The notes beneath the pieces were generated by a model, which searched no databases, was not told the origin of the DNA, and saw nothing but the letters and a program-made list of their open reading frames with translations. Below, one piece after another: positions 3,797 through 37,842 of a stretch of DNA of 43,075 bases. Both the position numbers and the translations under genes were made by a program. Every line of letters starts with the position of its first letter. Position 1 is the first letter of the stretch. The stretch is from Alphaproteobacteria bacterium (GTDB taxonomy: Bacteria > Pseudomonadota > Alphaproteobacteria > UBA828), in NCBI GenBank assembly GCA_022826345.1, contig JAJDVB010000138.1:1-43075 (forward strand). The letters are read 5' to 3'.

Positions 3797-3860
3797 GCAT
3801 GGCGTAATCCTGGCACGGCCCCCAGCCCACCGTGCACCGCACCATGGTCCGGAGAGTCGC
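3797..3860 (+). repeat. Dispersed intergenic repeat, copy 1
   Basis: The core GTGCACCGCACCATGGTCCG lies at 3832-3851 and is identical to 19551-19570 and, on the other strand, to 37789-37808. A second conserved block (GCATGGCG then ATCCTGGC) begins 35 bases before the core. The matching block begins 34 bases before the core in the other two copies. The centre CCGCACCATGGTCCGG is an imperfect palindrome with one mismatched pair. Copies 1 and 3 also share GAGTCGCA just after the core. Confidence 0.8.
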
Positions 3861-3898
3861 AGGCGAGGCGACAGAAATACACCCTCGTCGCCCATCCC

Positions 3899-3939
3899 TC
3901 TTCACCCCAGCCCTCTCCACCCTTTCAGGGTGGGAGAGG
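3899..3939. repeat. Palindromic intergenic element (CCTCTCC hairpin)
   Basis: CCTCTCCACCCT at 3912-3923 pairs with AGGGTGGGAGAGG at 3927-3939 across a TTC loop, with one bulged base. The lead-in TTCACCCCAGCCCTCTCC is nearly repeated at 33810-33827 (CTCACCCCGGCCCTCTCC), where the right arm is missing. Elements of this form are common between genes in GC-rich proteobacteria. No T-tract follows, so a terminator role is uncertain. Confidence 0.6.
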
Positions 3940-4170
3940 CACAGGGAGAGGTGGGTTCACTGCTCGGCTTGTTGCGCCGGCCCGTTGCGCCATACTGTGC
4001 CGCCAACTCCTAATCGCATTGGGCAGCTTCGAACGGTAGCTCGACGTGCCTAATCTCCTCGGTCTCCCCGTCCAAGAGCTCCGCGACAGCATCCACGTGA
4101 CGGCTCGATTCTCCTAGATGCACCCTCTCTCACGAGCATTCTTCCCCTTGCTTACGATGGCTAGCGACAA

Positions 4171-6042
4171 ATGACCCTCCATTCCCCCCTCACAGGCCAA
4201 GTCCGGCGCATAGACGCCTTGCTGCGCTCGCGTTTTCCCAATTTACTCACCCGAATATTTGAGATTGACTCTCACCGCTTCATAATACAATTCGACGCGC
4301 AACTTCAAAGAGCCTCCACTATATCGGAGGAATTTGACAATTCGATCTGCTTTATGACTGTCCCAATAGCGCTCTCAAACGACATTCCCAAGTCTTTTTT
4401 GAACGAAATTCAGCCCCTCTCAGACGAAGACACCATCGGAGATATGTCTGGGCTACCGTTGCGACGCATTGATATCCTCAATCTCCTAGCATCTCGTTTC
4501 CCCGACGCCGGCATTTTGCGTTTGAAAGACAAACCCGGTACTGGACAATTCACTCTGATGATACAGTCTGCTTTAGATGCAGATACGATAGCTCAGATTG
4601 AGGACTTTGTTGCCAGTTTCCAGCTGTCACTTACACTCGACTTTGAGGTTTCTTCGTCTCCACAGAACTCGGTCCAGCCAAGAGTAGACGATCCCATGCT
4701 GGTAAGGGCCGCTCACTTACGACCGTCTTCGCCAACTTATGTTCATGAAGACGAGGCATTCTGGTTTGATAATATTGGAAGAATATCCTCAAATGAACTC
4801 CCAGTTGAGAGTTTCCCTGGGATGCAGGAGGAAGTAAGTCGTTGTTACTTTGACCTTACGTTGGGAGAGCATCATGTGAATCTCCGTCAAGCTTTGCTTA
4901 TGTACGACGAGATTTGGTGCAGTTTACCCCTTGCGGACGTGCAAGAGGACTTTTTTGCGACTCAAGCAATCTCCAGAGAGGATGTTCTACAACTGGTAAA
5001 TGCGGGAAGACTGAGAGTTGTCACGACGCAGCCGGAGGAGCGTTTGGATATTCCGCTTTTGGAAGAGCTGCACGAAGCCAGCACTCACTCAGTTTATGGG
5101 CGCCGAAAGACGGCGGCCTTACTTGCTGCAGATATAACTCAGATGGCTGCGCTCTCCTTACTGAACGATCCGGGTCTTTTACCTGGAATCAGCGAATTCG
5201 CTAGGCAGTGTGCACCAATCATTGGCACAAACGCGAACGACGTTCTGCGAACTCTTTTGTGGCCTTTGGGAAGCAAACGCGGATCGTTGCAAAGCCTTCT
5301 AGTACAGGGATCCAAAGGCGGCCCAATAACTTCTTTGGCGCGGTTGACTTCTGACCGTATAAAGGAGTATACAGAGGTTGATCTTGCGCTGGAAGCCTAT
5401 TTTCTCGGTGAGCCTGTACATATTGGTCACACGCTAAACGCAACCGTCTTTGGGCCCATAAATGAACCACCGGTAAACTATCAACTGAAGTCGCTGCTCG
5501 GGGCGCAACTTAACGTCCACAAGAGTTTCACCGCCGAGTCTGCGGACTCTTGGATCGAAAACGAAGGTCGCAAACAGAATGGAACCGAATTGCTACCAGC
5601 ATTGCGAGTGTTTGAATTCGATCGAAGTGTTCCAATAAAGGAGATACTCGACGTTACTTCAATACGCTCTACCCGGATAGGAGGGCGAAATCTCTACACC
5701 CGCCTATCTGAGTTGAATGAGGAAGAGCGAGAAGAGGAGGTGGCGAAGTTAAATGGTGAAGTTGAAAAATGGGCGAAGAAAAAGTCGGATTGGTCGATTG
5801 GCCTCGAGACAGCCGACACAATGGTGTCTTTAGCTTCTTTGACGGGTCTGTTTTACTGGCTACCATTTGTTGGTTTGTATAACCTCGGAAGTAGGGGGCT
5901 CGAAAGACTAAGACGAAATAAGAAAATTGACGACATGATGTTACAATTGGAAAGTCAAGTAATAAAAGATTCCCGACGGAAGGAGCTGAGTTTCTTAAGC
6001 CGAATTGAAAGAGTTGCCAGTTTGAAGAGAGAGCGTGTCTGA
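4171..6042 (+). CDS. Unknown 623-aa protein, low-GC island gene with internal duplication
   Basis: No family is recognised. A 60-base sample (5401-5460) counts 50% G+C against about 67% in ordinary neighbours, and codon endings are visibly AT-richer, suggesting transfer. The N-terminus has two related segments: RRIDALLRSRFP (12-23) and RRIDILNLLASRFP (98-111), each followed by a hydrophobic beta-like stretch, so an ancestral domain of about 85 residues was probably duplicated. A middle region (about 230-330) contains LRQALLMYDEIWCSLPL, then VYGRRKTAALLAADITQ. Residues 512-540 are a charged, probably coiled-coil stretch (NEEEREEEVAKLNGEVEKWAKKK). A hydrophobic segment at 552-571 could sit in a membrane, followed by a basic C-terminus. 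The start is the first ATG after a stop at 4162 and lacks a clear Shine-Dalgarno. An IVD-like gene remnant lies just downstream. Confidence 0.75.
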   Translation: MTLHSPLTGQVRRIDALLRSRFPNLLTRIFEIDSHRFIIQFDAQLQRASTISEEFDNSICFMTVPIALSNDIPKSFLNEIQPLSDEDTIGDMSGLPLRRIDILNLLASRFPDAGILRLKDKPGTGQFTLMIQSALDADTIAQIEDFVASFQLSLTLDFEVSSSPQNSVQPRVDDPMLVRAAHLRPSSPTYVHEDEAFWFDNIGRISSNELPVESFPGMQEEVSRCYFDLTLGEHHVNLRQALLMYDEIWCSLPLADVQEDFFATQAISREDVLQLVNAGRLRVVTTQPEERLDIPLLEELHEASTHSVYGRRKTAALLAADITQMAALSLLNDPGLLPGISEFARQCAPIIGTNANDVLRTLLWPLGSKRGSLQSLLVQGSKGGPITSLARLTSDRIKEYTEVDLALEAYFLGEPVHIGHTLNATVFGPINEPPVNYQLKSLLGAQLNVHKSFTAESADSWIENEGRKQNGTELLPALRVFEFDRSVPIKEILDVTSIRSTRIGGRNLYTRLSELNEEEREEEVAKLNGEVEKWAKKKSDWSIGLETADTMVSLASLTGLFYWLPFVGLYNLGSRGLERLRRNKKIDDMMLQLESQVIKDSRRKELSFLSRIERVASLKRERV

Positions 6043-6172
6043 TTAAGCGAACGAAGTAAGGAGATGGCTTGAGCTGGCGTCTATCCCGCAAGCATGGAGC
6101 CTCACCACTGTGCTATGGTCGCCGCCATCTCGTGAGGGCGCGCGGTGGACGAAACCAGAGGCAACGGTTCCA

Positions 6173-6322
6173 ATGACCTCCACCCGAATGCCCGGCCTGG
6201 ATTTCGGGCTCGACGAGACGGTCGACATGATTCGCGCGGCGGTCGAGAGCTTCGCGCAGGCCGAGATTGCGTCGTGCGCCGAAGAGATCGACGCGAGCAA
6301 CGAGTTCCCGCGCCACTTCTAG
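6173..6322 (+). pseudogene. Remnant of isovaleryl-CoA dehydrogenase-like gene (first 49 codons)
   Basis: Forty of 49 encoded residues match the first 49 of the full-length gene at 33982-35154 ([18 protein letters not shown] and [12 protein letters not shown]). Homology starts exactly at the ATG and stops at a TAG (6320-6322), where the intact protein continues with DLWPRLGD. Nothing of the remaining roughly 340 residues is found downstream before the convergent flavin reductase gene. DNA upstream of the two ATGs is not similar. It is read here as a duplicated, truncated and non-functional gene end. A separate small gene is very unlikely. The orientation is opposite to the intact gene. Confidence 0.85.
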
Positions 6323-6402
6323 GGAGGCCCTTGCGCCGGACTCCTGAATCGCGCCCCTTTTTCTCGCTCGTTCGGCCCCAGCACGGCACCCGTCCCCTCG
6401 CT

Positions 6403-7023
6403 TCAATCCGGGAAGGGCATCTCGAAGTGACTGTCCACCGTGGTGTAGTCGGCGTAGCCGAGCCGCGCGATGGGCCGGAACTTCGACTGGTCCACGCGCC
6501 CCTCGGTGATGATTGAATCGTCGATGTGAACGCCGACGACCTCGCCCAGCACGAGCCAGTTGCGGAAGCGCGCGGGCTCGTCGGCCAACAGCTCGATCAC
6601 CTTGTGGAGCCGGCATTCGAGGTGGATCGGCGCGCCCTTCACCCTGGGCGGGCGCACCAGCCGCGCGGGCTCGGTCTTGAGCCCGGTTAGCGCGAACTCG
6701 TCGACGCTGCTCGGCACCCCGCTCGACGAGAGGCGCATGGCCTCGCGCTGCTCCCAGGTCGCGAGGTTGGCGACGAACTCGCCGGTCTCCTGCACGTTGT
6801 GCAGGCTGTCCTTGGCGCCGCCTTCGGCTGCGTGCGGGCCGCTCGGCGCGTACATCACCTGCGGCGGGTGGTCGCCGCAGGCGTTGAAGTAGCTGAAGGG
6901 CGCAAGGTTGAGCCCGCCGGCCGCATCGATCGTGGTGATCCAGCCGATCGGGCGCGGCACCACGCAGGACTTGAAGGGGTCGTGCGGCAGGCCGTGATCG
7001 TTGCGCGCGGTCTCGTAGAACAT
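6403..7023 (-). CDS. Flavin reductase family protein (FMN-binding split barrel)
   Basis: The 206-residue protein has the family's diagnostic early motif CVVPRPIGWITT followed by NLAPFSYFNACGDHPP, which form the FMN-binding split-barrel fold. These proteins reduce or bind flavin, often supplying FMNH2 to partner monooxygenases, and are cytoplasmic. The ATG at 7023 is seven bases after the stop of the VOC gene and is preceded by AGGCGGC. An open extension to 7224 overlaps that gene and is rejected. The pair is probably co-transcribed. No dedicated monooxygenase partner is adjacent. Confidence 0.88.
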   Translation of the reverse strand: MFYETARNDHGLPHDPFKSCVVPRPIGWITTIDAAGGLNLAPFSYFNACGDHPPQVMYAPSGPHAAEGGAKDSLHNVQETGEFVANLATWEQREAMRLSSSGVPSSVDEFALTGLKTEPARLVRPPRVKGAPIHLECRLHKVIELLADEPARFRNWLVLGEVVGVHIDDSIITEGRVDQSKFRPIARLGYADYTTVDSHFEMPFPD

Positions 7024-7030
7024 GAGCCGC

Positions 7031-7486
7031 CTACGCCTTTGGCCGCTGGATGAACTCCACCGTGATGCCGTCGGGATCGCGCGTGTAGACCACGAGGCCG
7101 CCCTTGTTGGGCCCGGCGTTGACGGTGATGGGATCGCCCAGCGGCTCGGAGCCCGCGTCCCGCACCGCCGCGATCGCTTCGTGGATGTCGTCCACGTCGA
7201 AGGCGATATGGGCGAAGCCGGCATCGCAGGGGCGCGAGTCGACCCGGCCGCGGTCGGCGGGGCCGCGGTACTCGATCAGCTCCAGGCGATGGCCCGGCGC
7301 CTGCAGGTAGGCGACCTCGATGTCCGCGCCGTCCACGCCCACCACCTGCTCGATGAACTTGGGATCGCGCGGCGAGCGGTTCAGCAGCGTGAAGCCGAGC
7401 GCGCCCTCGAACAGGCCGATCGCGCGGTCCAGGCTGGAGACCGTGAAGCTCGTGTGATTGGTCGCCGTGATCGTGAACCCCGCCAT
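7031..7486 (-). CDS. VOC family protein (glyoxalase/bleomycin-resistance/dioxygenase fold)
   Basis: The 151-residue protein shows the paired beta-alpha-beta-beta-beta modules of the vicinal oxygen chelate superfamily. Candidate metal ligands are His11 (TNHTSF), Glu in LELIEYRGP, His in FAHIAFDVDD and Glu in GITVEFIQRP near the C-terminus. VYTRDPDGI is the usual second-module signature. It is likely a metal-dependent lyase, isomerase or dioxygenase acting on a small hydrophobic or CoA-linked substrate. It is first in a two-gene minus-strand unit with the flavin reductase, seven bases apart. The exact reaction is unknown. Confidence 0.85.
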   Translation of the reverse strand: MAGFTITATNHTSFTVSSLDRAIGLFEGALGFTLLNRSPRDPKFIEQVVGVDGADIEVAYLQAPGHRLELIEYRGPADRGRVDSRPCDAGFAHIAFDVDDIHEAIAAVRDAGSEPLGDPITVNAGPNKGGLVVYTRDPDGITVEFIQRPKA

Positions 7487-7587
7487 TGTCGCTGCTCCTC
7501 CCCCGTGGTCGCGGCTGCGCGCGGGCCGAGCCTATCACACGGGCAAGGCTCGCTCCCGAGGCGTATACGAGTGGCCATGTCCATCCA

Positions 7588-7616
7588 TTGACTGCGGTAC
7601 TACTGAGTAATACCAT
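7588..7616 (+). promoter_or_regulatory. parDE promoter with overlapping palindromic operator
   Basis: A -35 box TTGACT (7588-7593) and a -10 box TACCAT (7611-7616) are separated by 17 bases. Between them, at 7596-7614, lies a 19-base near-palindrome GGTACTACTGAGTAATACC with only one mismatched pair besides the centre base. It covers the spacer and the start of the -10. This is where a ParD ribbon-helix-helix repressor would be expected to bind for autoregulation. A strong AAGGAGG (7623-7629) precedes the GTG start. Confidence 0.7.
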
Positions 7617-7634
7617 CGCGTTAAGGAGGCTCCC

Positions 7635-7910
7635 GTGACGGTCAAATCCTCGATCTCTCTCACCGACGAGCAGCATGCCTTCGCCAGGGCGCTGGTCGAG
7701 GCCGGGCGCTACGCCAGCCTCAGCGCGGTCTTGCAGCAGGGCGTCGACCTGCTGCGCCAGCGGATGGATGCGGAGGAGGTGGACACCGCGGCGCTGCGCG
7801 CGCTTCTCTCGCGCCGCCGCGAGGGCGCGTTCGTCGACGCCGAGGGGATGGATGCGCGGCTCAAAGCGATGATTGCCGACAAGCGCCGCGCGCATGGCCT
7901 TCCGTCTTGA
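7635..7910 (+). CDS. parD: ParD-type antitoxin (ribbon-helix-helix)
   Basis: The 91-residue protein begins with SSISLTDEQHAFARALVEAG, followed by RYASLSAVLQQGVDLL, the ParD/CC2985-type ribbon-helix-helix DNA-binding and dimerisation region. The C-terminal half (AALRALLSRRREGAF onward) is the toxin-wrapping segment. It starts with GTG at 7635, six bases after a perfect AAGGAGG. It overlaps the toxin gene by 17 bases, the usual coupled type II toxin-antitoxin arrangement. It should neutralise ParE and repress the promoter whose palindrome lies at 7596-7614. Confidence 0.9.
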   Translation: MTVKSSISLTDEQHAFARALVEAGRYASLSAVLQQGVDLLRQRMDAEEVDTAALRALLSRRREGAFVDAEGMDARLKAMIADKRRAHGLPS

Positions 7911-8250
7911 GTTTTCGGTCGAGGCCGAACGCGACTTCGGCCTGATCTTCGATCATCTCCTGCGCAGCTACCAAGGCTTCGGCGAGAGCCCCGAGAGTGC
8001 ACTCGATCTCGCGGCGGCGCGTGTTCTGGAGATCCGTGCCGACGCGGAGCGTATCCTTACCGCACCCCACCGGGGCGAGCGCCACGACGATATCCTGCCC
8101 GGCATGCGGCATCTGGCCATCGGACGGGCGATCTATTGGTTCGACGTCGACGAGGCGCGCGAGACGGTCCGTGTCCTCGCGGTGTTCTTCGGCGGGCAGG
8201 ATCACGTGCGACACATGATGGCGCGGCTGCTTGAAGACGACGGCTCGTGA
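7894..8250 (+). CDS. parE: ParE-type toxin (RelE/ParE superfamily)
   Basis: The 118-residue protein starts FRLEFSVEAERDFGLIFDHL, matching the ParE beta strand and alpha hairpin. It ends with GMRHLAIGRAIYWFDVDE and TVRVLAVFFGGQD, the conserved sheet with basic surface of ParE toxins. ParE proteins poison DNA gyrase. The ATG at 7894 is chosen because family homology begins at once. An upstream in-frame start at 7873 adds only seven non-conserved residues. The gene lies within 34 bases of the convergent stop of fbiC. The toxin looks intact. Confidence 0.88.
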   Translation: MAFRLEFSVEAERDFGLIFDHLLRSYQGFGESPESALDLAAARVLEIRADAERILTAPHRGERHDDILPGMRHLAIGRAIYWFDVDEARETVRVLAVFFGGQDHVRHMMARLLEDDGS

Positions 8251-8284
8251 TCGGGCCGAGAAGGCTGGCTAAGAACGCTCGCGC

Positions 8285-10753
8285 TCACTCCGCCGCCGGT
8301 GCGCCGGCGTCGAGCCCGGGGCGGACCAGGTCGCTCGCCGCCGCGCGCCGCTCGTAGCGGCGGGCGGGTGCGTTCACGACCGGGGCGAGCGGTGCCGCAT
8401 CGCGGGCTGCCAAGCGGCGCGCGGCGGGCGCGGGCTCGTAGAGCGTCGTCCGCTGCACCGGCGTGCGCACCAGCCGCTGGACCAGCGCCTCGATCTCGTC
8501 GGGCGGGAACTCCTGGCCGTGGCTCGCGCCGGCGGCGCGGGTGATGGACTCGTTCATCAGCGTGCCGCCGATGTCGTTGGCGCCGGCGCGGAGGCAGGCG
8601 GCGGCGCCCTCCCGCCCCATCTTGACCCACGAGGTCTGGATGTTGGGGATGACGGGGTGCAGCACGAGCCGCGCCACCGCGTGCATAAGCACCGCCTCGC
8701 GCCAAGTGGGCCCCTGCCTTGCGCGGCCCTTGAGGTAGAGCGGCGCCTCCATCGCGACGAAGGGGAGCGGCACGAACTCGGTGAAGCCGCCGGTGCGCTC
8801 CTGCAAGGCGCGGACACGCGCGAGGTGTCGCGCCCAGTGGCGCGGCCCGTCCACGTGGCCGAACATGATCGTGGCGGTGCTGCGCAGCCCCAGCGCGTGG
8901 GCCGCCTCCATCACCGAGAGCCACTGGTCGGTCGCGATCTTGTCGGGGCAGATGACGGCGCGGACCTCGTCGTCGAGGATCTCGGCGGCGGTGCCGGGGA
9001 GCGAGCCCAACCCCGCCTGCTGCAGCGTGGCGAGGAAGTCGGGCACGGTGCGGCCGAGTGTCGCGGCGCCCTGCCAGATCTCCAGCGGCGAGAAGGCGTG
9101 GACGTGGATGGCGGGCTCGGCCTGCTTGATGGCACGGCAGATTGCGAGATAGGTCTCGCCGGTGTAGTCGGGATGGATGCCGCCCTGGAGGCAGACCTCG
9201 GTCGCGCCGCGTTCCCAGGCCTCCCGCACGCGGCGCACGATCTCGTCGGTCGTCAGGTCGTAGGGCCGGCCGCGCAGGTTCTCGCTCAGCTTGCCCTTGG
9301 AAAAGGCGCAGAACTGGCAGCGGAAGTAGCAGACGTTGGTGTAGTTGATGTTGCGGTTCACCACGTAGCTGATTTTCGGCCCGCTGACGCTGGCGCGCAG
9401 CGCATCTGCCGCGGCGCAGACCGCGTCGAACGCGCCGCCGCGCGCCGCGAAGAGCCGCACCAGCGCGTCCTCGCCGAGCCCCTCGCCAGCCTCGGCCCGG
9501 ACCAGAAGGCGCTCGATGTCGGGCGCAATGACGGCTGGGGCGGGCACGCGGTCCTCTGGCGGCGGCTCGCCTGCGCCGGTGACCCAGGCGTCGGTGCGGG
9601 GATAGCCCTCGGCATCCACCAGCTTCAGCACGCGCGTCTGCAGCGCCGGATCGAGCCAGCGCTCGCCCGTGCGCGCGTAGGACGGGTAGACCGTGAGGCG
9701 CTCGGCCAGGGTCTTGCCGGCGGCGGCGGTCTCGCGCGCGAGCGCGTCGAGATGCGGCCAGGGGGCCTCGGGATTGACGTAGTCCTGCGTCACCGGCGAG
9801 ACGCCGCCCCAGTCGTTGATCCCGGCGGCGACCAGCGGCGGCAGCGCGCCGGGGCTCAGGTTGGGCGGCGCCTGGATATTAGCCTCGGGGCCGAAGACGA
9901 TGCGCGCGACTGCGATGGTCCAGAGCAGCTCGTCGAGGTTCGGTTCCGGCGCGTCAGCCATGCGCGTCCCCGGCTTGGCCCGGAAGTTCTGGACGATGAT
10001 CTCCTGAATGTGGCCGTGGGCGTCGTGGGCCTCGCGCAGCGCAAGCAGGGCCTCGATCCGCTCCTGGCGGGTCTCGCCGATACCGATGAGGATGCCGGAG
10101 GTGAAAGGCACCGCCTCCTCGCCGGCGAGGCGAAGCGTCTCCAGCCGTGCCGCCGGGCGCTTGTCGGGCGAGCCGTAATGCGGCCCGCTCTTGGCGGAAA
10201 GCCGCTCCGACGCGCTCTCCAGCATCATGCCCTGGGAGGCCGAGACCTGGCGCAGCGCCTGCAAATCCTCGCGGCTCAGCACGCCGGGATTGAGGTGGGG
10301 CAGCAGCTCGGTCTCGTCCAGCACCAGCTGCGCCATCGCCGTGAGATAAGCGAGCGTGCTTTCGTGGCCGAGCGCTTCCAGGCCCTCGCGCGCTGCGCGG
10401 TATCGCAACTCCGGCTTGTCGCCGAGGGTGAACAGCGCCTCCTTGCAGCCGGCGGCGGCGCCGGCTTCGGCCACCCGCAGCACCTCGTCCGGCGTCATGA
10501 AGGCGGTCTCGCCCCGGCGCGGCGGCCGGGCGAAAGTGCAGTAGTGGCAGACATCGCGGCAAAGATGGGTGAGCGGGATGAAGACCTTGCGCGAGTAGGT
10601 CACGACGTCGGGATGCGCCCGGTCGCGGAGTGCGGCTGCGCAGTCGAGCAGCGGCGCAAGGTCGTCTTCGGCCGCGAGCGCGTGGGCCTGCACCGCATCG
10701 GGACGGCGGCCGCCTTGCACCGCTTCGAGCAGTTCGCGGGTTGCGCCTTGCAT
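8285..10753 (-). CDS. fbiC: Fused CofG/CofH 7,8-didemethyl-8-hydroxy-5-deazariboflavin (FO) synthase
   Basis: The 822-residue protein has two radical SAM domains. The N-terminal CofG-like half has CxxxCxxC at Cys65, Cys69, Cys72. The C-terminal CofH-like half has Cys475, Cys479, Cys482 (NVCYFRCQFC). This matches the FbiC fusion, which makes FO, the deazaflavin chromophore of coenzyme F420, from tyrosine and 5-amino-6-ribitylaminouracil. NINYTNVCYFRCQFCAFSK and CLQGGIHPDYTGE are typical of CofH. The ATG at 10753 follows GAGGCGG and lies five bases after the cofC stop, so the two genes form an operon. Both halves keep their cluster cysteines, so the enzyme appears functional. Confidence 0.95.
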   Translation of the reverse strand: MQGATRELLEAVQGGRRPDAVQAHALAAEDDLAPLLDCAAALRDRAHPDVVTYSRKVFIPLTHLCRDVCHYCTFARPPRRGETAFMTPDEVLRVAEAGAAAGCKEALFTLGDKPELRYRAAREGLEALGHESTLAYLTAMAQLVLDETELLPHLNPGVLSREDLQALRQVSASQGMMLESASERLSAKSGPHYGSPDKRPAARLETLRLAGEEAVPFTSGILIGIGETRQERIEALLALREAHDAHGHIQEIIVQNFRAKPGTRMADAPEPNLDELLWTIAVARIVFGPEANIQAPPNLSPGALPPLVAAGINDWGGVSPVTQDYVNPEAPWPHLDALARETAAAGKTLAERLTVYPSYARTGERWLDPALQTRVLKLVDAEGYPRTDAWVTGAGEPPPEDRVPAPAVIAPDIERLLVRAEAGEGLGEDALVRLFAARGGAFDAVCAAADALRASVSGPKISYVVNRNINYTNVCYFRCQFCAFSKGKLSENLRGRPYDLTTDEIVRRVREAWERGATEVCLQGGIHPDYTGETYLAICRAIKQAEPAIHVHAFSPLEIWQGAATLGRTVPDFLATLQQAGLGSLPGTAAEILDDEVRAVICPDKIATDQWLSVMEAAHALGLRSTATIMFGHVDGPRHWARHLARVRALQERTGGFTEFVPLPFVAMEAPLYLKGRARQGPTWREAVLMHAVARLVLHPVIPNIQTSWVKMGREGAAACLRAGANDIGGTLMNESITRAAGASHGQEFPPDEIEALVQRLVRTPVQRTTLYEPAPAARRLAARDAAPLAPVVNAPARRYERRAAASDLVRPGLDAGAPAAE

Positions 10754-10758
10754 CCGCC

Positions 10759-11439: not shown

Positions 11440-11493
11440 ATCGCCATCCCTTGGGCTCTCCCCCGGTGCCGGCGAGCCGCGTGCCGGTGCGCG

Positions 11494-11522
11494 ACGCTAG
11501 GAAAAAGGCCGAAACCTGTCAA
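11494..11522 (-). promoter_or_regulatory. Sigma70-type promoter of cofC-fbiC
   Basis: On the minus strand a perfect TTGACA (11517-11522) is followed after 17 bases by TAGCGT (11494-11499). The ATG of cofC lies 54 bases further on. A tract of T residues sits inside the spacer. This argues that the F420 genes have their own promoter rather than relying on the upstream E1 genes. Confidence 0.55.
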
Positions 11523-11556
11523 ACGGCGCGCGCCGCACGGCCGGGGCAATCCGCGC

Positions 11557-12561: not shown

Positions 12562-12575
12562 TGTCGGTCCCCCGC

Positions 12576-19436: not shown

Positions 19437-19516
19437 GGAACAGGCGTCGATGCGGACCGCGATCGAGGCGGGACAACGGGGCGATCCCCCCGGCGCGGCG
19501 TGGAACCGTTCGCACT

Positions 19517-19580
19517 GCATGGCGCGATCCTGGCTTCCAAGTCGCGTGCCGTGCACCGCACCATGGTCCGCAGTGTCGGA
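19517..19580 (+). repeat. Dispersed intergenic repeat, copy 2
   Basis: The core GTGCACCGCACCATGGTCCG (19551-19570) is identical to copies 1 and 3. The upstream block GCATGGCG with ATCCTGGC starts at 19517, the same offset as the others to within one base. It lies between the tandem array and the methyltransferase stop. The bases after the core diverge from copies 1 and 3. Confidence 0.8.
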
Positions 19581-19591
19581 TGCAGCGACGC

Positions 19592-26795: not shown

Positions 26796-26883
26796 TGGTG
26801 CCCGCGCCCGGACTCGAACCGGGACTCCCTGTCGGGAAACGGATTTTAAGTCCGTTGCGTCTACCAAATTCCGCCACGCGGGC
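26796..26883 (-). tRNA. tRNA-Leu (anticodon UAA)
   Basis: Read on the minus strand the gene starts GCCCGCG and ends CGCGGGC, forming a perfect seven-pair acceptor stem, then A and an encoded CCA (26796-26798). The anticodon arm pairs AACGGA with TCCGTT around loop CTTAAAA, giving anticodon TAA. A class II variable arm and the T-arm GGTTCGAGTCC are present. It lies between hyuAB and the Liv importer. Confidence 0.97.
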
Positions 26884-29165: not shown

Positions 29166-29189
29166 GGCGAGCAGTCGACTAGGCCCAGG

Positions 29190-30027: not shown

Positions 30028-30044
30028 GGAGCGCGGGACGGACC

Positions 30045-30944
30045 ATGCAGTACGTGGCCGAACAGGCACTCAACGCGCTCAGCATCGGCGCCGAGTACTC
30101 GCTGCTCGCGTTGGGGCTCGCCATCGTGTTTTCGGTCATGGGGCTGGTGAACTTCGCCCACGGCGAGTTCCTCGGTGTCGGCGGCTACATCATGTACGCC
30201 ATGGCGCTGTTCGGCGCCGGCGACATCTGGATGATCCTGCCGGTCTGCCTGCTCACGGTGGTGATCACCGCCGTGCTCCTGGAGCGTGTCGCCTTCAGAC
30301 CGGTTCGACGAGCGCCGGCGACAACGGGGCTGCTTACCGCCTTCGGGGTCGCGATCATCCTTCAGAACGTGTTCCTGATGGGGGTCTCGCCCCGGCCCAA
30401 GGCCGTGCCCGCCATCGCGGTGCTCAACACGACAGTGGATATCGGCAGCTTCACCTTCACCATCCTGCAGTTTCTCGAGGCGGGCGTGACCGCCATCGCG
30501 ATCGTGCTGCTGGTCATCTTCATGCGGCGGACCAAGCTGGGCCTTGCCATGCGCGCCGCAGCCCACGACTTCACCACCGTGCGCCTGATGGGCGTGCGGG
30601 CGAACCGGGTGATCGCGATGGCGTTCGCGATCTCGGGCTTTCTCGCGGGCCTCGCCGCCATCTTCTTCATCGCGCGGCGCGGCGCGATCGACCCCTTCAT
30701 GGGCCTGCTGCCGGTGCTCAAGGCATTCGTCGCCTGCGTGCTGGGCGGCTTCGGCAGCCTGCCGGGCGCGGTGGTCGGCGGGCTCGTACTGGGCATCCTC
30801 GAGGTGGTCCTGATCATCCTGCTACCCGACTTCCTCGCAGGCCTTCGCGACGCCGCGGTGTTCTTCATCATCGGCGCCATCCTGGTCGGGCGGCCCCAGG
30901 GCATCCTCGGCAAGAAGGCCGAGCTGGGAGACAAGACCGCTTGA
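30045..30944 (+). CDS. livH: Branched-chain amino-acid-type ABC permease, LivH family
   Basis: This 299-residue inner-membrane protein has about eight hydrophobic segments. Landmarks are MGLVNFAHGEFLGVGGY near the N-terminus and ERVAFRPVRRAPATTGLL in the cytoplasmic loop that contacts the ATPases. ATG 30045 starts 17 bases after livF. Its TGA overlaps the TTG start proposed for livM (TTGA), consistent with coupled translation. Confidence 0.92.
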   Translation: MQYVAEQALNALSIGAEYSLLALGLAIVFSVMGLVNFAHGEFLGVGGYIMYAMALFGAGDIWMILPVCLLTVVITAVLLERVAFRPVRRAPATTGLLTAFGVAIILQNVFLMGVSPRPKAVPAIAVLNTTVDIGSFTFTILQFLEAGVTAIAIVLLVIFMRRTKLGLAMRAAAHDFTTVRLMGVRANRVIAMAFAISGFLAGLAAIFFIARRGAIDPFMGLLPVLKAFVACVLGGFGSLPGAVVGGLVLGILEVVLIILLPDFLAGLRDAAVFFIIGAILVGRPQGILGKKAELGDKTA

Positions 30945-32035
30945 GCGCGCCGACCATGGATAGCAGTCGCCCGCGCCGGCGCCTCTGGCACGTGGAGGGC
31001 GCACGCACGCTCAGATCGGTGCGGGGCGCCATGATCATCGCCGCCTTCGCGGTCGGCATTGGCCTGCTCATCATGCTGTTCGGCGAGCCCTACCAGGTGC
31101 GCCTCGCCGTGGCTGCCTACATCAACCTGATCCTGGTGCTAGGCCTGCAGATCTTCATGGGCAACGCCAACGTGGCCAACCTGGCCCATCCGGGCTTCAT
31201 GGGGCTCGGCGCCTATCTCACGTCGATCTTCGCGGTGCCGCTGGTAATCAAGAAGACGCTGATTCCCAACGCGCCGTTCGGTCTCGGCGAGGTTCAACTC
31301 GGCATCGTCTCGTCGTTCGTCGCCGCGGTGTCGATCACCGGGATCATCGCGGCTCTGACCGGACTCTTTCTGGTCCGGCTCTCGGGGATCGCGGCGACGA
31401 TTCTCACGCTCGCCATCCTCGTCATCATCCACGGCGTCTTCGTGCACTGGGTCGACCTGTTCCGGGGAACCCAGGCGTTCTACGGCATACCGAAGGTCGC
31501 GGGGATCGAGACCATGATGGTCGCGACCGCCCTCGTCATCCTGGTCGCGCGGCTGTTCAAGGACTCGCGGATCGGCGTGCAGCTTCGCGCCAGCGCCACC
31601 AACATGCTCGCGGCCGAATCGATGGGCGTGAACATCCGGGCGCTCCGGCTGATCGCCTGGGTGCTGGGGGGCGTGGTGTGCGGCATCGCCGGCGCGCTTT
31701 ACGCCTACTATCTGGGCACGGTGAACGCCCGCGCCTTCTACTTTCACGCCGCGTTCCTCACGCTTGCCATGCACATCCTCGGCGGCATGCGCTCGGTGAC
31801 TGGCGCCGTGGTGGGCGTGGTGTTGATCTCGGTCGCCATGGAGCTGATCCGCCACCTGGAGAGCGGGCCGGTCATCCTGGGCGCGCAGTTGCCCGACCTG
31901 TTCGGGCTCGGCAGCCTCATGCTGGGCGTCATCATCGTGCTGGTGATGTGCCTGCGCTCGGACGGGCTGATGGGCGGCCTGGAGCTCGACGAGGTGTTGG
32001 ACCGGTATTGGAAGCGATGGCGGAGAGGCGGGTAG
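30941..32035 (+). CDS. livM: Branched-chain amino-acid-type ABC permease, LivM family
   Basis: The 364-residue permease has about nine to ten hydrophobic segments. NANVANLAHPGFMGLGAY resembles the LivM signature, and there is a conserved GIAGALYAYY near the C-terminal half. TTG 30941 is favoured because it overlaps the livH stop and GGGAG sits ten bases upstream. ATG 30956, five codons in, is the alternative. It pairs with livH as the translocation channel. Confidence 0.9.
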   Translation: MSAPTMDSSRPRRRLWHVEGARTLRSVRGAMIIAAFAVGIGLLIMLFGEPYQVRLAVAAYINLILVLGLQIFMGNANVANLAHPGFMGLGAYLTSIFAVPLVIKKTLIPNAPFGLGEVQLGIVSSFVAAVSITGIIAALTGLFLVRLSGIAATILTLAILVIIHGVFVHWVDLFRGTQAFYGIPKVAGIETMMVATALVILVARLFKDSRIGVQLRASATNMLAAESMGVNIRALRLIAWVLGGVVCGIAGALYAYYLGTVNARAFYFHAAFLTLAMHILGGMRSVTGAVVGVVLISVAMELIRHLESGPVILGAQLPDLFGLGSLMLGVIIVLVMCLRSDGLMGGLELDEVLDRYWKRWRRGG

Positions 32036-32115
32036 CGTCTTGTCCCGCGACCGCTTGACATCGGCAAATGCGGCGTCGGACCCTGCGCCCGGCGCCATGG
32101 CGGACGGGGGCTTCC

Positions 32116-33801
32116 GTGCCTGACCCGCAAGCGGAACGGCCGGGCGGGACCCACGCGCCGGCCTGCGAGTTCGATGCCGTGATCGTCGGCGCCGGTTTCG
32201 CCGGACTCTACGCGCTCCACCGGCTGCGCAGCATGGGGCTGAGCGCGCGGGTCTTCGAGATTGGAAGCGGCGTCGGCGGCACGTGGTTCTGGAACCGCTA
32301 TCCCGGTGCGCGCTGCGACGTCGAGAGCATGGAGTATTCCTACCAGTTCGACGACGCGCTGCAACAGGAGTGGGAGTGGACCGAGCGCTACGCCACCCAG
32401 CCCGAAATCCTGCGTTACCTCAACCATGTCGCCGACCGCTTCGACCTCCGCCGCGACATCCGCTTCGACACCCGCGTCACCGCCGCGACCTTCGACGAGG
32501 CGGCCGGGCACTGGACGGTCGAGACCGACGACGGCGCGCGCGTGACCGCGACCCACTGCATCATGGCGAGCGGCTGTCTCTCCGCGCGCAACATTCCGGA
32601 TTTCAATGGCATCGACTCCTTCGTCGGCGCGACCTACCACACCGGAGACTGGCCCGAGGAAGACGTCGATTTTTCGGGCCGGCGGGTGGGCATCATCGGC
32701 ACCGGCTCCTCGGCCATCCAGTGCATTCCGCTCATCGCCGAGCAGGCGGAGCATCTCTTCGTCTTTCAGCGCACGCCGAACTACAGCATCCCCGCCTTCA
32801 ACGCGCCGCTCGACCCCGAGGTGCAGAAGGCGGTCAAGGCGGACTACGCGGGCCTGCGGGCGCGCGCGCGGCAGAACCGCTCGGGCATCGACTTCGCGGT
32901 GGGCGAGACCGGCGTGTTCGACGTGGGGCCCGAAGAACGCGAGGCCGTCTACGAAGAGCGCTGGCGCACCTGCGGCATCGGCTTCCTGGGCGCGTTCTCC
33001 GATCTCTTCGCGACCGCGGAGGCCAACGACACGGCGGCCGAGTTCGTCCGCGCCAAGATTCGCGAGACGGTGCACGACCCGGCGGTGGCAGAACTGCTCT
33101 CGCCCCACTACCACATCGGCTGCAAGCGGACCTGCGTCGACACCGATTATTACGCGACCTACAACCGGGACAACGTCACCCTCGTCGACGTCAGCGAGAC
33201 GCCGATCGGGGAGATCACCCGCGCCGGCCTCAAGGTGGGCGACCGCGACTACGAGTTCGACGCGCTGATCTTCGCCACCGGGTTCGACGCCATGACCGGC
33301 CCGCTGACCCGCATCGACATTCGCGGCATCGGCGGCCGCTCGCTGGCCGAGAAATGGAAGGAGGGGCCGCGATCCCTGCTCGGTGTCGCCACGGCGGGCT
33401 TCCCCAACCTCCACATCATCGCCGGGCCGGGCAGCCCGTCGGTGCTGAGCAACATGGTCCAGTCCATCGAGCAGAACGTGGAATGGATCGCGGACTGCAT
33501 CGGCTACATGCGCGAGAACGGGTTCGCCCGCGTCGAGGCGACGGTCGAGGCGGAGGACGCGTGGGTCGCCCACGTCAACGAGGTGGCCGACGCCACGCTC
33601 TATACCAAGACCAAGTCCTGGTACATCGGCTCGAACATTCCGGGAAAGGCGCCCGTCTTCATGCCCTACATCGGCTTCCCGGACTACGTGCGGAAGTGCG
33701 ACGAGGTCGTGGCGAAGGGCTACGCGGGGTTCGCCTTCGTCGAGCGCTCCGACGCGTCGGTGGTGGAGGGCCGCTCGAAAGAAGCCACGGCGGCCGAGTA
33801 A
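32116..33801 (+). CDS. Baeyer-Villiger-type flavin monooxygenase
   Basis: The 561-residue protein has FAD-binding GAGFAG (25-30), the strongly conserved GGTWFWNRYPGARCD (54-68), the fingerprint F169xGxxxH175xxxW179P and an NADPH Rossmann GTGSSA (195-200). This combination marks NADPH-dependent BVMOs that convert ketones to esters or lactones. GTG 32116 is preferred for its G-rich ribosome site. ATG 32068 would add 16 Arg-rich residues. It follows livM by 80 bases on the same strand, so may be co-transcribed with the importer. It faces the IVD gene across a hairpin. The ketone substrate is unknown. Confidence 0.92.
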   Translation: MPDPQAERPGGTHAPACEFDAVIVGAGFAGLYALHRLRSMGLSARVFEIGSGVGGTWFWNRYPGARCDVESMEYSYQFDDALQQEWEWTERYATQPEILRYLNHVADRFDLRRDIRFDTRVTAATFDEAAGHWTVETDDGARVTATHCIMASGCLSARNIPDFNGIDSFVGATYHTGDWPEEDVDFSGRRVGIIGTGSSAIQCIPLIAEQAEHLFVFQRTPNYSIPAFNAPLDPEVQKAVKADYAGLRARARQNRSGIDFAVGETGVFDVGPEEREAVYEERWRTCGIGFLGAFSDLFATAEANDTAAEFVRAKIRETVHDPAVAELLSPHYHIGCKRTCVDTDYYATYNRDNVTLVDVSETPIGEITRAGLKVGDRDYEFDALIFATGFDAMTGPLTRIDIRGIGGRSLAEKWKEGPRSLLGVATAGFPNLHIIAGPGSPSVLSNMVQSIEQNVEWIADCIGYMRENGFARVEATVEAEDAWVAHVNEVADATLYTKTKSWYIGSNIPGKAPVFMPYIGFPDYVRKCDEVVAKGYAGFAFVERSDASVVEGRSKEATAAE

Positions 33802-33809
33802 TCCCCCTC

Positions 33810-33827
33810 CTCACCCCGGCCCTCTCC
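33810..33827 (+). repeat. Partial copy of the CCTCTCC intergenic element
   Basis: CTCACCCCGGCCCTCTCC differs from 3901-3918 at two positions, but lacks the second palindrome arm. It begins eight bases after the BVMO stop. Confidence 0.55.
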
Positions 33828-33909
33828 AGACTCGTTCATTTCCCTCAGGCGCCGGGCGCTCGCTCCGCTCGCTTGGCTACGCGCTTCGCGCGCGGCGCGG
33901 TCGCGCCGT

Positions 33910-33926
33910 CCGGGCCTTCGGCCCGG
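33910..33926. terminator. Hairpin between convergent BVMO and IVD genes
   Basis: CCGGGCC and GGCCCGG pair perfectly over a TTC loop. Both flanking genes point at it, so it could end either transcript. No T-run follows. Confidence 0.45.
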
Positions 33927-33981
33927 CCCCTATCAGGGCAGACACCTCGTCGGGTTGCCGCGCGGCGCGGACGGCGTGCGC

Positions 33982-35154
33982 TTATCCCGTCTCCTCGAAG
34001 AGCTCGCGGCCGATGAGCATGCGGCGGATCTCGCTGGTGCCGGCACCGATCTCGTAGAGCTTGGCGTCGCGCAGCAGCCTGCCGGTGGCGAACTCGTTGA
34101 CGTAGCCGTTGCCGCCCAGCGCCTGGATCGCTTCCAGCGCCATCCAGGTCGCCTTCTCGGCGGCGAAGAGGATGGCACCCGCCGCGTCCTTGCGGCTGGT
34201 CTCGCCCCGATCGCACGCGCGCGCCACGGCGTAGACATAGGCGCGGGCCGCGTTCATCGCCGTGTACATGTCCGCGATCTTGCCCTGCATGAGCTGGAAG
34301 GTGCCGATGGGCCGGCCGAACTGCTGGCGCTGGTGGACGTAGGGCAGCACGATGTCCATGCATGCGCGCATGATCCCCAGGGGGCCGGCGGCGAGCACCG
34401 CGCGCTCGTAGTCGAGCCCACTCATCAGCACGCCCACGCCACCGCCTTCCTCGCCGATCACGTTCTCCGCCGGCACCTCGCAGTCCTCGAACACCAATTC
34501 CGAGGTGTTCGAGCCCCGCATGCCGATCTTGTCGAGCTTTTGGGCGGTGGAGAAGCCGGGCATGCCCTTCTCGATCAGGAAGGCGGTGATGCCCCGGCTG
34601 CCGGCCTCAGGATCGGTCTTGGCGTAGACCACCAGGACTTCGGCGTCGGGCCCGTTGGTGATCCACATCTTGGACCCGTTGAGGACGTAGCGATCGCCAC
34701 GACGCTCGGCGCGGGTGCGCATGCCGACCACGTCCGACCCCGCGCCCGGCTCGCTCATGGCGAGCGCGCCGACATGCTCGCCCGAGATCAGCCTGGGCAG
34801 GTAGCGGGCGCGCTGGGCTTGCGTTCCGTTGAGCCTGATCTGGTTGACGCAGAGGTTGGAGTGCGCGCCGTAGCTGAGCCCGACCGAGGCCGACGCCCGG
34901 CTCACCTCCTCCATGGCGACGCAGTGCTCCAGGTAGCCGAGGCCGCTGCCGCCCTCCTCCTCCTCCACCGTGAGGCCGAGCAGGCCGAGATCGCCCAGTC
35001 GCGGCCAGAGGTCGCGCGGGAACTCGTTGCTCGCGTCGATCTCCTCCGCCCGCGGCGCGATCTCGGCCTGCGCGAAGCTCTCGACCGACGAGCGGATCAT
35101 GTCGGCCGTCTCGCCGAGCCCGAAATCCAGCCCTGGCATTCGGTTGGAGGTCAT
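33982..35154 (-). CDS. ivd: Isovaleryl-CoA dehydrogenase (acyl-CoA dehydrogenase family)
   Basis: The 390-residue flavoprotein has SEPGAGSD (134-141) and MWITNG (163-168) of acyl-CoA dehydrogenases. It has the IVD-type catalytic glutamate, Glu250 in SGLDYER, and the C-terminal [12 protein letters not shown], in which the usual C-terminal catalytic Glu site is occupied by glycine/alanine. IVD oxidises isovaleryl-CoA in leucine breakdown, passing electrons to ETF. ATG 35154 is chosen because a truncated duplicate at 6173 begins at the same codon. A GTG 13 codons upstream is possible. No methylcrotonyl-CoA carboxylase (liu cluster) is present here. It is convergent with the BVMO. Confidence 0.9.
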
Positions 35155-35334
35155 TGCACTAACTTCTCGCGCTGCCGACGCATCGAATTCCACTCATAAC
35201 ATACCACATTCCCGGTGGCCGGCCGTAAGAGCCACTCCGAAATTCACTAGACTCCTCAAGTGCTCTGCATTGCGCCATAGCCATCAACTAAAGTTCCTAT
35301 CTCCTCCATGTATCCACCCTCACGCCCTTTGGCC

Positions 35335-35363
35335 TTGTTTAGGAGCTAGGACAAAGCTATTCT
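35335..35363 (+). promoter_or_regulatory. Promoter of the NACHT NTPase gene
   Basis: A -35 box TTGTTT (35335-35340) and a -10 box TATTCT (35358-35363) are separated by 17 bases, about 45 bases before the ATG. GAGG sits eight bases before the start. Confidence 0.5.
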
Positions 35364-35409
35364 GGACTACTACTGCTTAGCATCAAGCCAATAGAGAAGA
35401 GGAACATCA

Positions 35410-37626
35410 ATGCACTGGAAATCCCTTGAGCAGCGCGTGCGCGATATCGCCGTCCTGCAATATGGAAAAGCCGGAGTTTCAGAAAACATTAACGGAGTCA
35501 ATTTGGACTGCGTAATTAAGTTGGATGATGATCGCTGGATTATTATCGAAGTCTCCAAACGACGTGACTTAGAAAAAGTTCGCGCAGACGTCAATCGTTT
35601 AGTCTTAGTGAAGCGACATCTTTATGAAAATCGGAACATCATGGCCAAATGCTCCTTCGTTTGTCTGTATGAGCCCACTCGCTCCATGGTGCAGGCAGGT
35701 TCTCCTTATCATATTGAAGTAATGTCACAAAAGCGCTTCGAGAGCGAATTTTTCGACTATGATTCTTACGTGCAAGCCCGCTCACAACTTCAGTTTGGAA
35801 GCTCAGTTCACCCGGTAACCGGAAGTCCGGACAATACCGCGTACGTTCCGGTAAAGTATCAATTTGAGATACCGGATAAAGAGTATCATATTGATGATAT
35901 TAGGAAAGCTCTCCTCTCGGGCTCATTAGTTATTTTATTGGGGGAGTATGGCTCTGGAAAGAGTAGATGCCTCCGCGAAGTCTTTCACCTTCTTTCAAGC
36001 GGTGACGATTATTCATCTTACTTTCTCGCAATAGATTTGAAAACCACGTGGGGTCTTCAAACGGGAGAAGAAATCATACGGCGGCACTTCACGGATATCG
36101 GGCTAAGTCATGCCGCCGATTTCGCAATCCGCGCTTATCACGCCGGCCATATCCGTTTCATCCTCGACGGGTTTGACGAAGTTGGTTCCCAGGCGTGGAG
36201 CGATGACCCAGCGACCCTCAAGAGAATTCGATTGGACTCTCTGCGAGGAGTGAGAGATATTATTGAAAGAGCAGCTACTGGTGTACTAATCGCCGGCAGA
36301 GAGCACTACTTTAATACCACGGAGGAAATGCTAACCTGCCTAGGGGCGAAACGAGAGGATTCTATAATTGGCAGTTGCAAGCGCGAATTCAATGATGAAG
36401 AGTTAGAGGAGTTCCTAAATCTTATAAGTGAAGATGTTATTGTCGTGCCTGAGTGGTTGCCTCGGCGGCCGCTAATGTGTCAAGCTATAGCCTCATTAGA
36501 CGAAGATGAACTCCGAGATATTCTTGCGGATCAAAACGGTGATATTGATTTCTGGAAGGCATTTATTGATATCATTTGCCGTAGGGAAGCACGTATTCGA
36601 CATATATTAGATGCGGAAGCAATCAAAGGGATACTAACTCGCCTCGCGCATATTACAAGGGCAAAGAAGTCAAATGTCGGCCCTATCAGCTATAGTGAAA
36701 TACAAGTGGCTTTTGAAGCAGTACTTGGAACTCATCCGGTAGAGGAAGCGTCCGTAATTTTGCAACGACTTCCGGGCCTCGGTAGGACGGACAGAGAATC
36801 AGACGATAGGCAGTTTATAGATTCATATGTCGTGGACGGGCTTCGGGCGTTGGACCTTGTCACCGCGGTGGAAGGGTTTGATACTGGTTTGGCAAGAGAG
36901 GTGTGGAGCAATCCGCTAGATCATTTGGGTCAGCGGGTCTTTGCTCAGGAAGTCGAACGAAAAGAAATCGAAACAAATGCTCTGAATTACGCGCATAACA
37001 TTAGCGATAAGAGCAACAAGATAGCAGTGTCAGATATTGTGAGCAGCTTGCTTTGGTTGGATCGAGAAGAGGCGGATTTCAGGTCTATCAAGATATCCGA
37101 AGGAGAAATGATATATTGCGATCTGTCTCATGTGCGAGCAGTAAATCTCCAGTTAGAGCGGTGCATAATCTTTAATTTCGTGTTTCCGGCGGAGCCGATA
37201 GATGCAGTGGAGATAAAGGACTGCCATATTGGACGTGCTTATGGCGTAACCGGTCCTCAAGGCGTTCCAGAATGGGTGGTGAACACGGAAGTCGAACGAT
37301 ATGAGTCAATCGCTACTGTTTCTGCGATAAAGAACGTGGACTTGTCTCCTCAACATAGAATATTGGTAACAATACTAAAGAAGACATTTTTTCAGCCGGG
37401 AGGCGGTCGCCAAGAAGCAGCGCTGTTACGTGGCTTGGGTCAGGTAGACCGCCATGGGTATACTGATCGTATCCTGAAGATGCTCATAACGGAGGGCTTG
37501 CTGAAGAGTGCAAGAGGGAAGCATGGAAACCTATATGTGCCGGAGCGGAAGTACAGCGATAGGGTAGGAAAGATGCTGGCAGAGTTAAATTTGAGCAAGG
37601 ATCCGATTTGGCATAAAGTAACATAG
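35410..37626 (+). CDS. NACHT-type STAND NTPase with PD-(D/E)xK-like N-terminal domain
   Basis: The 738-residue protein has three parts. Residues 1-120 resemble a restriction-endonuclease-like fold: Asp33 in NLDCVI, then IIIEVSK with Glu47 and Lys50 (an E-x-x-K spacing rather than the classic E-x-K). Residues about 165-300 are a NACHT P-loop NTPase, with Walker A GEYGSGKS (178-185) and Walker B RFILDGFDEVGSQ (249-261). The C-terminal 90 residues look like a winged-helix unit. Such NACHT proteins are linked to phage sensing and abortive defence. A 60-base sample (36541-36600) counts only 38% G+C, so recent transfer is likely. It stands alone with its own promoter, upstream of IVD in opposite orientation, and next to a dispersed repeat. 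Confidence 0.85.
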   Translation: MHWKSLEQRVRDIAVLQYGKAGVSENINGVNLDCVIKLDDDRWIIIEVSKRRDLEKVRADVNRLVLVKRHLYENRNIMAKCSFVCLYEPTRSMVQAGSPYHIEVMSQKRFESEFFDYDSYVQARSQLQFGSSVHPVTGSPDNTAYVPVKYQFEIPDKEYHIDDIRKALLSGSLVILLGEYGSGKSRCLREVFHLLSSGDDYSSYFLAIDLKTTWGLQTGEEIIRRHFTDIGLSHAADFAIRAYHAGHIRFILDGFDEVGSQAWSDDPATLKRIRLDSLRGVRDIIERAATGVLIAGREHYFNTTEEMLTCLGAKREDSIIGSCKREFNDEELEEFLNLISEDVIVVPEWLPRRPLMCQAIASLDEDELRDILADQNGDIDFWKAFIDIICRREARIRHILDAEAIKGILTRLAHITRAKKSNVGPISYSEIQVAFEAVLGTHPVEEASVILQRLPGLGRTDRESDDRQFIDSYVVDGLRALDLVTAVEGFDTGLAREVWSNPLDHLGQRVFAQEVERKEIETNALNYAHNISDKSNKIAVSDIVSSLLWLDREEADFRSIKISEGEMIYCDLSHVRAVNLQLERCIIFNFVFPAEPIDAVEIKDCHIGRAYGVTGPQGVPEWVVNTEVERYESIATVSAIKNVDLSPQHRILVTILKKTFFQPGGGRQEAALLRGLGQVDRHGYTDRILKMLITEGLLKSARGKHGNLYVPERKYSDRVGKMLAELNLSKDPIWHKVT

Positions 37627-37778
37627 CAAAGCATAAATTTGAATTCGAGAACAAGCCTTAGTTGGGACCAACAGAGGGTACAGGCAGAGTAATCGGCTGA
37701 CGGAGTTGCGTTAGCAAGCAGTTTGAGGCCGGCATATGCCGGGCCGCCACCAGTGGAAAAGTTCTGGACGGTAGTTCG

Positions 37779-37842
37779 TGCGACTCCCCGGACCATGGTG
37801 CGGTGCACGGGGCGGGCGGGGGGAGGCAGGCTGTGCGGATGC
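37779..37842 (-). repeat. Dispersed intergenic repeat, copy 3 (inverted)
   Basis: The complement of the core occupies 37789-37808, identical over 20 bases to copies 1 and 2. The GCAT block lies at the same 34-base offset (37839-37842), more diverged beyond. GAGTCGCA after the core is shared with copy 1. The orientation is opposite to copy 1, which lies outside the other low-GC gene. Confidence 0.8.

Follow-up and report, generated by a model that had tools for sequence, protein, structure and literature searches.

The stretch of DNA considered here, called the window, is a 43,075-base contig (JAJDVB010000138.1, assembly GCA_022826345.1) from an alphaproteobacterium of the UBA828 lineage, in which the start of an acyl-CoA dehydrogenase gene, IVD, occurs twice in opposite orientations and lies each time beside a gene of low guanine-plus-cytosine (GC) content. 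The intact gene (33982..35154, minus strand) encodes 390 amino acids (aa) with acyl-CoA dehydrogenase domains according to Pfam; its name is that of the original prediction on this DNA, and an NCBIfam scan of the 390-aa protein reached no equivalog cut-off. The second copy is a 5' fragment (6171..6322, plus strand) that starts 2 bases before the ATG and runs for 49 codons to a stop. Positions 6171-6320 and 35156-35007 are 89% complementary over 150 nucleotides (nt), inverted and with 28.7 kb between them; 131 of 147 coding bases are identical and the longest exact run is 30. The inverted duplication of the IVD 5' end that had been proposed is thus present.

The GC content of the contig is mostly 0.62-0.75, and only two low-GC runs (called in 500-bp windows at GC below 0.53 over at least 700 bp) are found in it, each at one IVD 5' end, a coincidence not put down to chance. 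The cargo at the fragment is a gene for a 623-aa protein of an unnamed family (4171..6042, plus strand, GC 0.48), and the cargo at the intact gene encodes a 738-aa NACHT/STAND NTPase (35410..37626, plus strand, GC 0.47). On the left, the core flank is a fused pyruvate-dehydrogenase-type E1 alpha/beta gene (E1; 1523..3676, plus strand; Pfam E1_dh, Transket_pyr, Transketolase_C), and the fragment is followed by a flavin reductase-like gene (6403..7224, minus strand; Pfam Flavin_Reduct). On the right, intact IVD has as its neighbor an FMO/Baeyer-Villiger-like gene (32068..33801, plus strand; by Pfam), and the outer flank beyond the NACHT gene begins with a Mu Gp27-like gene (37904..38503, plus strand; PF11985, E 3.6e-19). 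The original prediction described these surroundings as mirror-image flanks, which suits the inverted IVD starts and the two low-GC genes but not the third copy of a short repeat, discussed below, or the direction of the cargo: since the NACHT gene, on the plus strand, points away from IVD and the left gene points towards the fragment, cargo direction is no part of the mirror.

Variable cargo at the start of IVD

When 22 order-level genomes were searched with IVD, 15 gave a match at a limit of 1e-200, among them five relatives (G024, G025, G026, G027 and G029), which we read as congeneric with the window from the 95-97% aa identity of their intact IVD copies. Contigs of these relatives were listed by their matches to window positions 1-12000 and 26000-43075, with 40 of 465-816 candidates scored in each genome. 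Together with the window, the stretches selected around IVD and around homology to the window form a comparison set of 413 kb. Another set, 142 relatives of G003, had no match above 83% and was set aside.

All ten IVD 5' ends in the six genomes (six intact, four fragments) lie 0-132 bp from a low-GC run, and six of them sit inside one. The whole set holds 15 such runs, ten at IVD 5' ends and five elsewhere, a count that is not a genome-wide rate because the stretches were picked around IVD and window homology. E1 is the immediate upstream neighbor of IVD in G024, G025 and G026, where both genes are on one strand and 1.8-2.5 kb separate them, and G027 and G029 resemble the right end of the window in that the FMO gene follows IVD. 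The cargo differs in all six genomes. Before the intact gene it is a DUF2806 protein of 319 aa in G024, an unnamed 348-aa protein in G025, a low-GC DUF4238 protein of 286 aa in G026, an unnamed 318-aa protein in G027, a 302-aa match to PD-T4-7 in G029 (PADLOC, E 1e-39) and the NACHT protein in the window. At the fragments it is the 623-aa gene in the window, a 395-aa gene with apparent membrane segments in G025, a 668-aa HATPase_c_3 (GHKL) protein with a weak type II restriction match in G027 (PADLOC, 7e-6) and several open reading frames (ORFs) of 105-270 aa in G029, where the fragment has low-GC DNA on either side. An all-against-all blastp comparison of low-GC cargo proteins of at least 100 aa gave no match at E≤0.01, and cargo has the same orientation as IVD in some intervals and the opposite orientation in others. 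Hence the claim of a locus at the IVD start that accepts foreign genes is upheld: variable cargo stands beside IVD in every genome examined, and the opposite finding, an IVD neighbor that never varies, did not materialize. The hotspot may be limited to the genus, since GC profiles of ten loci from the wider order, covering up to 1.5 kb upstream, have no clear drop before IVD (one locus, L100, is lower throughout).

The same locus had been suggested to be a defence-gene hotspot. This is plausible to the extent that one cargo matches PD-T4-7, a published anti-phage gene, although only a minority of the cargo is recognisably defensive. In an Escherichia coli selection study, PD-T4-7 is among the systems termed toxin-antitoxin-like and abortive (PMC9519451). 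PADLOC returned no match for the other five congener cargo proteins, for two G029 ORFs on the fragment side, for two small ORFs of G026 or for either window gene. A high-GC (0.65) pair of genes for a PemK-like toxin and a Phd/YefM-like antitoxin, identified with Pfam, lies beside the DUF4238 gene between E1 and IVD in G026 (contig C150, about 19740-20490).

Neither window gene is easily named. The 623-aa protein has no Pfam, PADLOC or NCBIfam match; 58 homologs are listed, the best at 67%, and none is found in viral contigs. Its AlphaFold2 model has a predicted local distance difference test score of 82 and matches nothing in the PDB at E≤0.001. A plasmid origin was considered for both genes and rejected: the 623-aa gene has only two partial plasmid matches (29% over 23% of the query), and the NACHT gene a single distant one (41%, Erwinia). 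The NACHT domain of the 738-aa protein (PF05729) scores 29.6 bits against a cut-off of 26.7 (E 7.3e-7), and the model of the protein resembles NAIP5, NLRC4 and Avs4 in Foldseek, with nothing significant in a search against PDB sequences. A sequence search collected 591 proteins at E≤0.001, itself included, and relatives occur in viral contigs at ten loci, eight of them nearly full length at 34-40%. The first 85 residues are predicted to fold as alpha-beta-beta-beta-alpha-beta with D33 and E47 conserved, which suggests a PD-(D/E)XK-like nuclease in this N-terminal region. Such an effector is ascribed to bNACHT25 and bNACHT32 (PMC12169576), and the protein resembles bNACHT clade 6, as characterized there, in its central NACHT domain and in this N-terminal arrangement. 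It differs in having no PADLOC or NCBIfam match and in being only 41-50% identical to most aligned relatives.

A copied IVD start and an inverted segment

Two arrangements of the genes around the IVD starts exist in the genus. G024 and G026 have E1, cargo and IVD in this order, and in them the junction between the flavin reductase gene and pyrB, the gene for aspartate carbamoyltransferase (an identity checked on the G027 gene), is empty, with 53 bp from the flavin reductase stop to the pyrB start as we read it. In G025 everything lies on one contig (C50): E1, cargo, intact IVD, a gene for tRNA-Leu, about 32 kb, the flavin reductase gene, the IVD fragment, cargo and pyrB. A distance of 34.8 kb separates its two IVD starts, and 19 kb of the DNA that follows the tRNA-Leu gene are without counterpart in the window, where tRNA-Leu(taa) lies at 26796..26883 on the minus strand (ARAGORN). 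The window has E1, cargo, fragment and flavin reductase, and, beyond the NACHT gene, the Gp27/GATase1 flank where relatives have pyrB. G027 has E1, cargo, an IVD remnant and flavin reductase on one contig (C106) and IVD, cargo and pyrB on another (C44); the remnant is 29 bp long (90%, E 0.003) and lies where the 3' end of the fragment is expected. In G029, IVD, cargo and pyrB are together (C424), and a 90-bp IVD fragment lies 0.4 kb from flavin reductase (C14). The four ends thus occur in two combinations: in one, E1 is joined to IVD and flavin reductase to pyrB; in the other, E1 is joined to flavin reductase and IVD to pyrB. An inversion between the IVD starts produces this pattern. Since the segment between these starts is found both ways round, it was inverted, and G025, where intact IVD is on the E1 side and the fragment on the pyrB side, is a relative of the kind that the original prediction had proposed to look for, one carrying the 6-34 kb segment inverted.

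The scar left by the copied IVD start is shared by the window, G025, G027 and, in degraded form, G029. The junction between the fragment and the flavin reductase gene is nearly identical in the window and G025, and both fragments carry two bases, at positions 142 and 145 of the coding sequence, that are absent from all six intact IVD copies; together these features argue that the two fragments likely have a single origin. An unrooted tree of the segment separates the four fragment carriers from G024 and G026 with support of 100. In a rooted concatenate, whose root is carried by IVD alone, G024 with G026 has support of 86, the four carriers 45, and groups among the carriers 73-76. Because of this rooted value of 45, the side on which the change took place was judged from the clean junctions of G024 and G026 and not from the tree.

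A short element upstream of IVD helps to follow these ends. The element TGCTATGGTC lies before the window fragment (6111..6120, plus strand) and before IVD in the five relatives, 57-78 bases ahead of the ATG. It is found with 0-2 mismatches at six of nine IVD 5' ends, namely the intact IVD of the five relatives and the window fragment, four of the six being exact; in a control, 6% of shuffles reached at most two mismatches. The best match at intact IVD of the window has three mismatches, a level reached by 36% of shuffles, and the fragments of G025 and G029 have four mismatches each. The 65 bp ahead of the window fragment and those ahead of intact IVD in G025, both on the E1 side, align with a score of 27, against -12 for the best of 500 shuffles. 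The position of TGCTATGGTC is consistent with a putative IVD promoter. If it is one, the functional IVD of the window would be read from foreign upstream DNA: a low-GC stretch (35155..35409) occupies the place of the upstream region seen in relatives.

We consider the following history probable as a whole. The interval from E1 to the IVD start codon would be a small hotspot of the genus, without recognisable integrase, that holds varied short pieces of foreign low-GC DNA, usually a single gene and sometimes a defence-like one. About 150 bp of the IVD 5' end would have been copied in inverted orientation into the junction between flavin reductase and pyrB in an ancestor shared by G025, G027, G029 and the window species. 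The segment between the two inverted starts, which has one orientation in G025 and the opposite one in the window, in G027 and, as far as its contigs tell, in G029, would have been inverted; the simplest cause would be recombination between the two IVD 5' copies, or else the event that produced the duplication. Each IVD start, intact or fragmentary, would have gone on to change its cargo independently, perhaps by homologous recombination through the flanks, to arrive at unrelated genes at both ends. A single event with staggered breakpoints can yield both an inversion and an inverted copy of the sequence at the breakpoint. Inversions of this kind with inverted duplications are described in Drosophila (PMC7584159), and the IVD case resembles them in its combination of inversion and inverted copy, though it is bacterial and its duplication and inversion may have come in either order. 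The observation behind the original prediction is real, and the core of its interpretation holds: a hotspot at the IVD start, an inverted duplication, differing genes at both copies and an inversion. As for the flanks that were said to have been duplicated, only the 150 bp of IVD are duplicated in the sequence itself, and repeat and cargo may or may not have been copied along with them. A bolder possibility, which we regard as rather unlikely, is that the first 150 bp of IVD are by themselves a transplantable acceptor, whose copy turned the flavin reductase-pyrB junction into a second docking site with differing genes in the four carriers.

Several points weigh against the proposed history. 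Given the rooted support of 45, the scar could conceivably have been lost in G024 and G026 rather than gained in the others, and the IVD tree alone conflicts weakly with the concatenate, placing the window with these two species (support 30). In G026 the tRNA-Leu gene lies on the E1 side and the E1-IVD unit is reversed relative to it, indicating further rearrangements, and the right outer flank of the window, with Gp27 in place of pyrB, requires a second rearrangement or an assembly join to be assumed. E1 of G029 is not among the close matches listed, for which 40 of 465 candidates were scored. The upstream element is distributed unevenly as well: G027 and G029 keep TGCTATGGTC at intact IVD and the window keeps it at the fragment, such that a crossover within the 150 bp explains the window only and the others need a longer duplication or a later loss. 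In addition, searches of the 22 order-level genomes for both window cargo genes, run without a positive control for cargo proteins, detected neither, so that no exchange with close relatives is seen, and as all relatives are draft assemblies with one genome per species, variation within species is out of view.

The dispersed repeat and rival explanations

The original prediction had also placed a repeat at both outer borders of the locus. The repeat is a degenerate dispersed element of 65 bp with a sharp 3' edge, and the window contains three copies: copy 1 (3783..3867, plus strand; nhmmer E 8.5e-18), which was used in building the model, copy 2 (19507..19591, plus strand; E 6e-18), which is away from any low-GC run, and copy 3 (37771..37856, minus strand). 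Its 20-bp core, with at most one mismatch, has 35, 38 and 32 matches in G025, G027 and G024 (one G024 match being counted on both strands) and none in a reversed control, so the repeat does occur near many unrelated places. With an nhmmer model built from copies that include some of those counted, 13 copies are found in the 413 kb at E<1e-3, six within IVD intervals, copy 3 among them, and seven outside. Furthermore, copy 3 has orthologs in G025 (C78:9694-9612) and G027 (C73:10676-10612) that sit beside the same Gp27/GATase flank, which is conserved in both genomes; copy 3 is therefore part of that flank's own DNA and did not arise by duplication of copy 1. The repeat consequently neither defines the site nor can serve as a marker of this locus.

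A repeat that is dispersed could still act as the acceptor, with cargo entering at its 3' edge, pairs of copies driving the rearrangements and IVD being incidental. The sharp 3' edge and the six of ten IVD intervals that have a copy between outer flank and cargo (one of them being copy 3) fit this idea, as does an asymmetry around the copies: among 90 fetched copies (30 each from G025, G027 and G024, with 82 and 79 sides long enough to judge) low-GC DNA lies on the 3' side of nine and the 5' side of two, and among the 30 top-scoring loci, an overlapping set whose printed profiles were read by eye, on the 3' side of six and the 5' side of none. However, only 11 of the 90 copies have low-GC DNA on one side at all, and four of the ten IVD intervals are without a copy, which leaves this explanation improbable. 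Beyond the copy 3 ortholog of G025 (L180:6399-9465, on contig C78) there is low-GC cargo with an HD-domain protein that has a dGTPase match and a second protein that matches DarG in part, and this cargo adjoins an IS1595-type transposase gene; no low-GC run lies beyond the ortholog in G027. Two further repeats were seen in the window. One at 33829-33954, after IVD, is dispersed too, with dozens of matches at 75-96% in the five relatives and copies inside some E1-IVD intervals, and the other is a short imperfect tandem array of 9-10-base units at 19294-19445, next to copy 2.

Equally doubtful is the suggestion that the right end of the window is a chimeric join of the metagenome assembly, the mirror being partly artificial. 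It draws on the fact that the unit of IVD and the NACHT gene joins the Gp27 flank at a dispersed repeat, at a place where pyrB follows in G025 (at the fragment), G027 and G029. Yet copies 1 and 3 of the repeat are only 86% alike over 43 nt, which offers little for a misjoin, the NACHT gene is intact within continuous low-GC DNA, and the left end with the IVD fragment is independently present in G025 and partly in G027.

There are integrating elements that replace the 5' end of the gene they insert into. Mobile elements with a site-specific integrase might likewise insert at the IVD start and leave the IVD 5' copy behind as an attachment-site scar, and in several genomes the junction does lie at the IVD start or close to it. 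Against this, no integrase or recombinase family was detected among the interval ORFs scanned (two window genes, eight congener proteins and six further ORFs, other small or high-GC ORFs being outside the scan), the IVD copies, with 28.7 kb between them, have opposite orientations instead of forming direct repeats that bound an insert, and in G024 and G026 cargo precedes intact IVD with no second copy beside it. An integrase-borne element was thus rejected and seems very unlikely. Least credible of all is a live invertible switch, or phase variation, that would choose the upstream region driving IVD: both orientations do exist in the genus and TGCTATGGTC stays with the fragment in the window, but arms that are only 89% identical are too diverged and no invertase family is found in the interval ORFs scanned.

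Known hotspots and further observations in the window

The proposed hotspot with its copied border can be set beside systems already described. Oliveira et al. (2017, PMC5635113) outline hotspots of horizontal gene transfer between core genes that have no integrase, and propose that their contents are exchanged by recombination in the flanking core genes. By analogy, the IVD spot would work in the same way, as it shares with these hotspots the conserved flanking genes, the turnover of foreign genes and the lack of a recognisable mobile element. It is unlike them, as outlined there, in its size of about 2 kb with usually one gene, and in having its IVD-side border duplicated at another junction, where two relatives have nothing and the carriers of the copy have varying genes. 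A fixed place with varied immune genes and many unknown genes is likewise reported for cDHS1 and cDHS2 of Pseudomonas aeruginosa (PMC10250203); these hotspots are given there as a median of 26 kb and 6 kb with many systems, in contrast to the one to three genes of the IVD spot, of which a minority are recognisably defensive. Narrow word searches of the open-access literature returned no description of an IVD-linked island, or of a defence hotspot with inversion and duplication; a paper on bacterial rearrangements (PMC12863080) serves as background.

Why some chromosomal spots gather foreign and defence genes without an integrase is an open question. The six genomes show one such spot in three states (single with an empty second junction, copied, and copied with the segment inverted), which allows one to ask what the minimal acceptor is. 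The cargo list, mostly of unnamed proteins, is a set of candidate defence genes, and the window suggests that cargo turnover may strip a core gene of its usual upstream region.

Three other features of the window were recorded. A second E1-type gene set lies at 11557-13607 on the minus strand and is paralogous to the one at 1523-3676 (72-78% inverted matches; Pfam for 11560-12561). The block at 22500-27000, with a hydantoinase gene, has a moderately lower GC content (0.56-0.64) and is 94% conserved in G027, so it is not recent cargo. Finally, positions 1-140 match the ends of many G025 contigs at about 81-82% and belong to a multicopy element that probably breaks assemblies.

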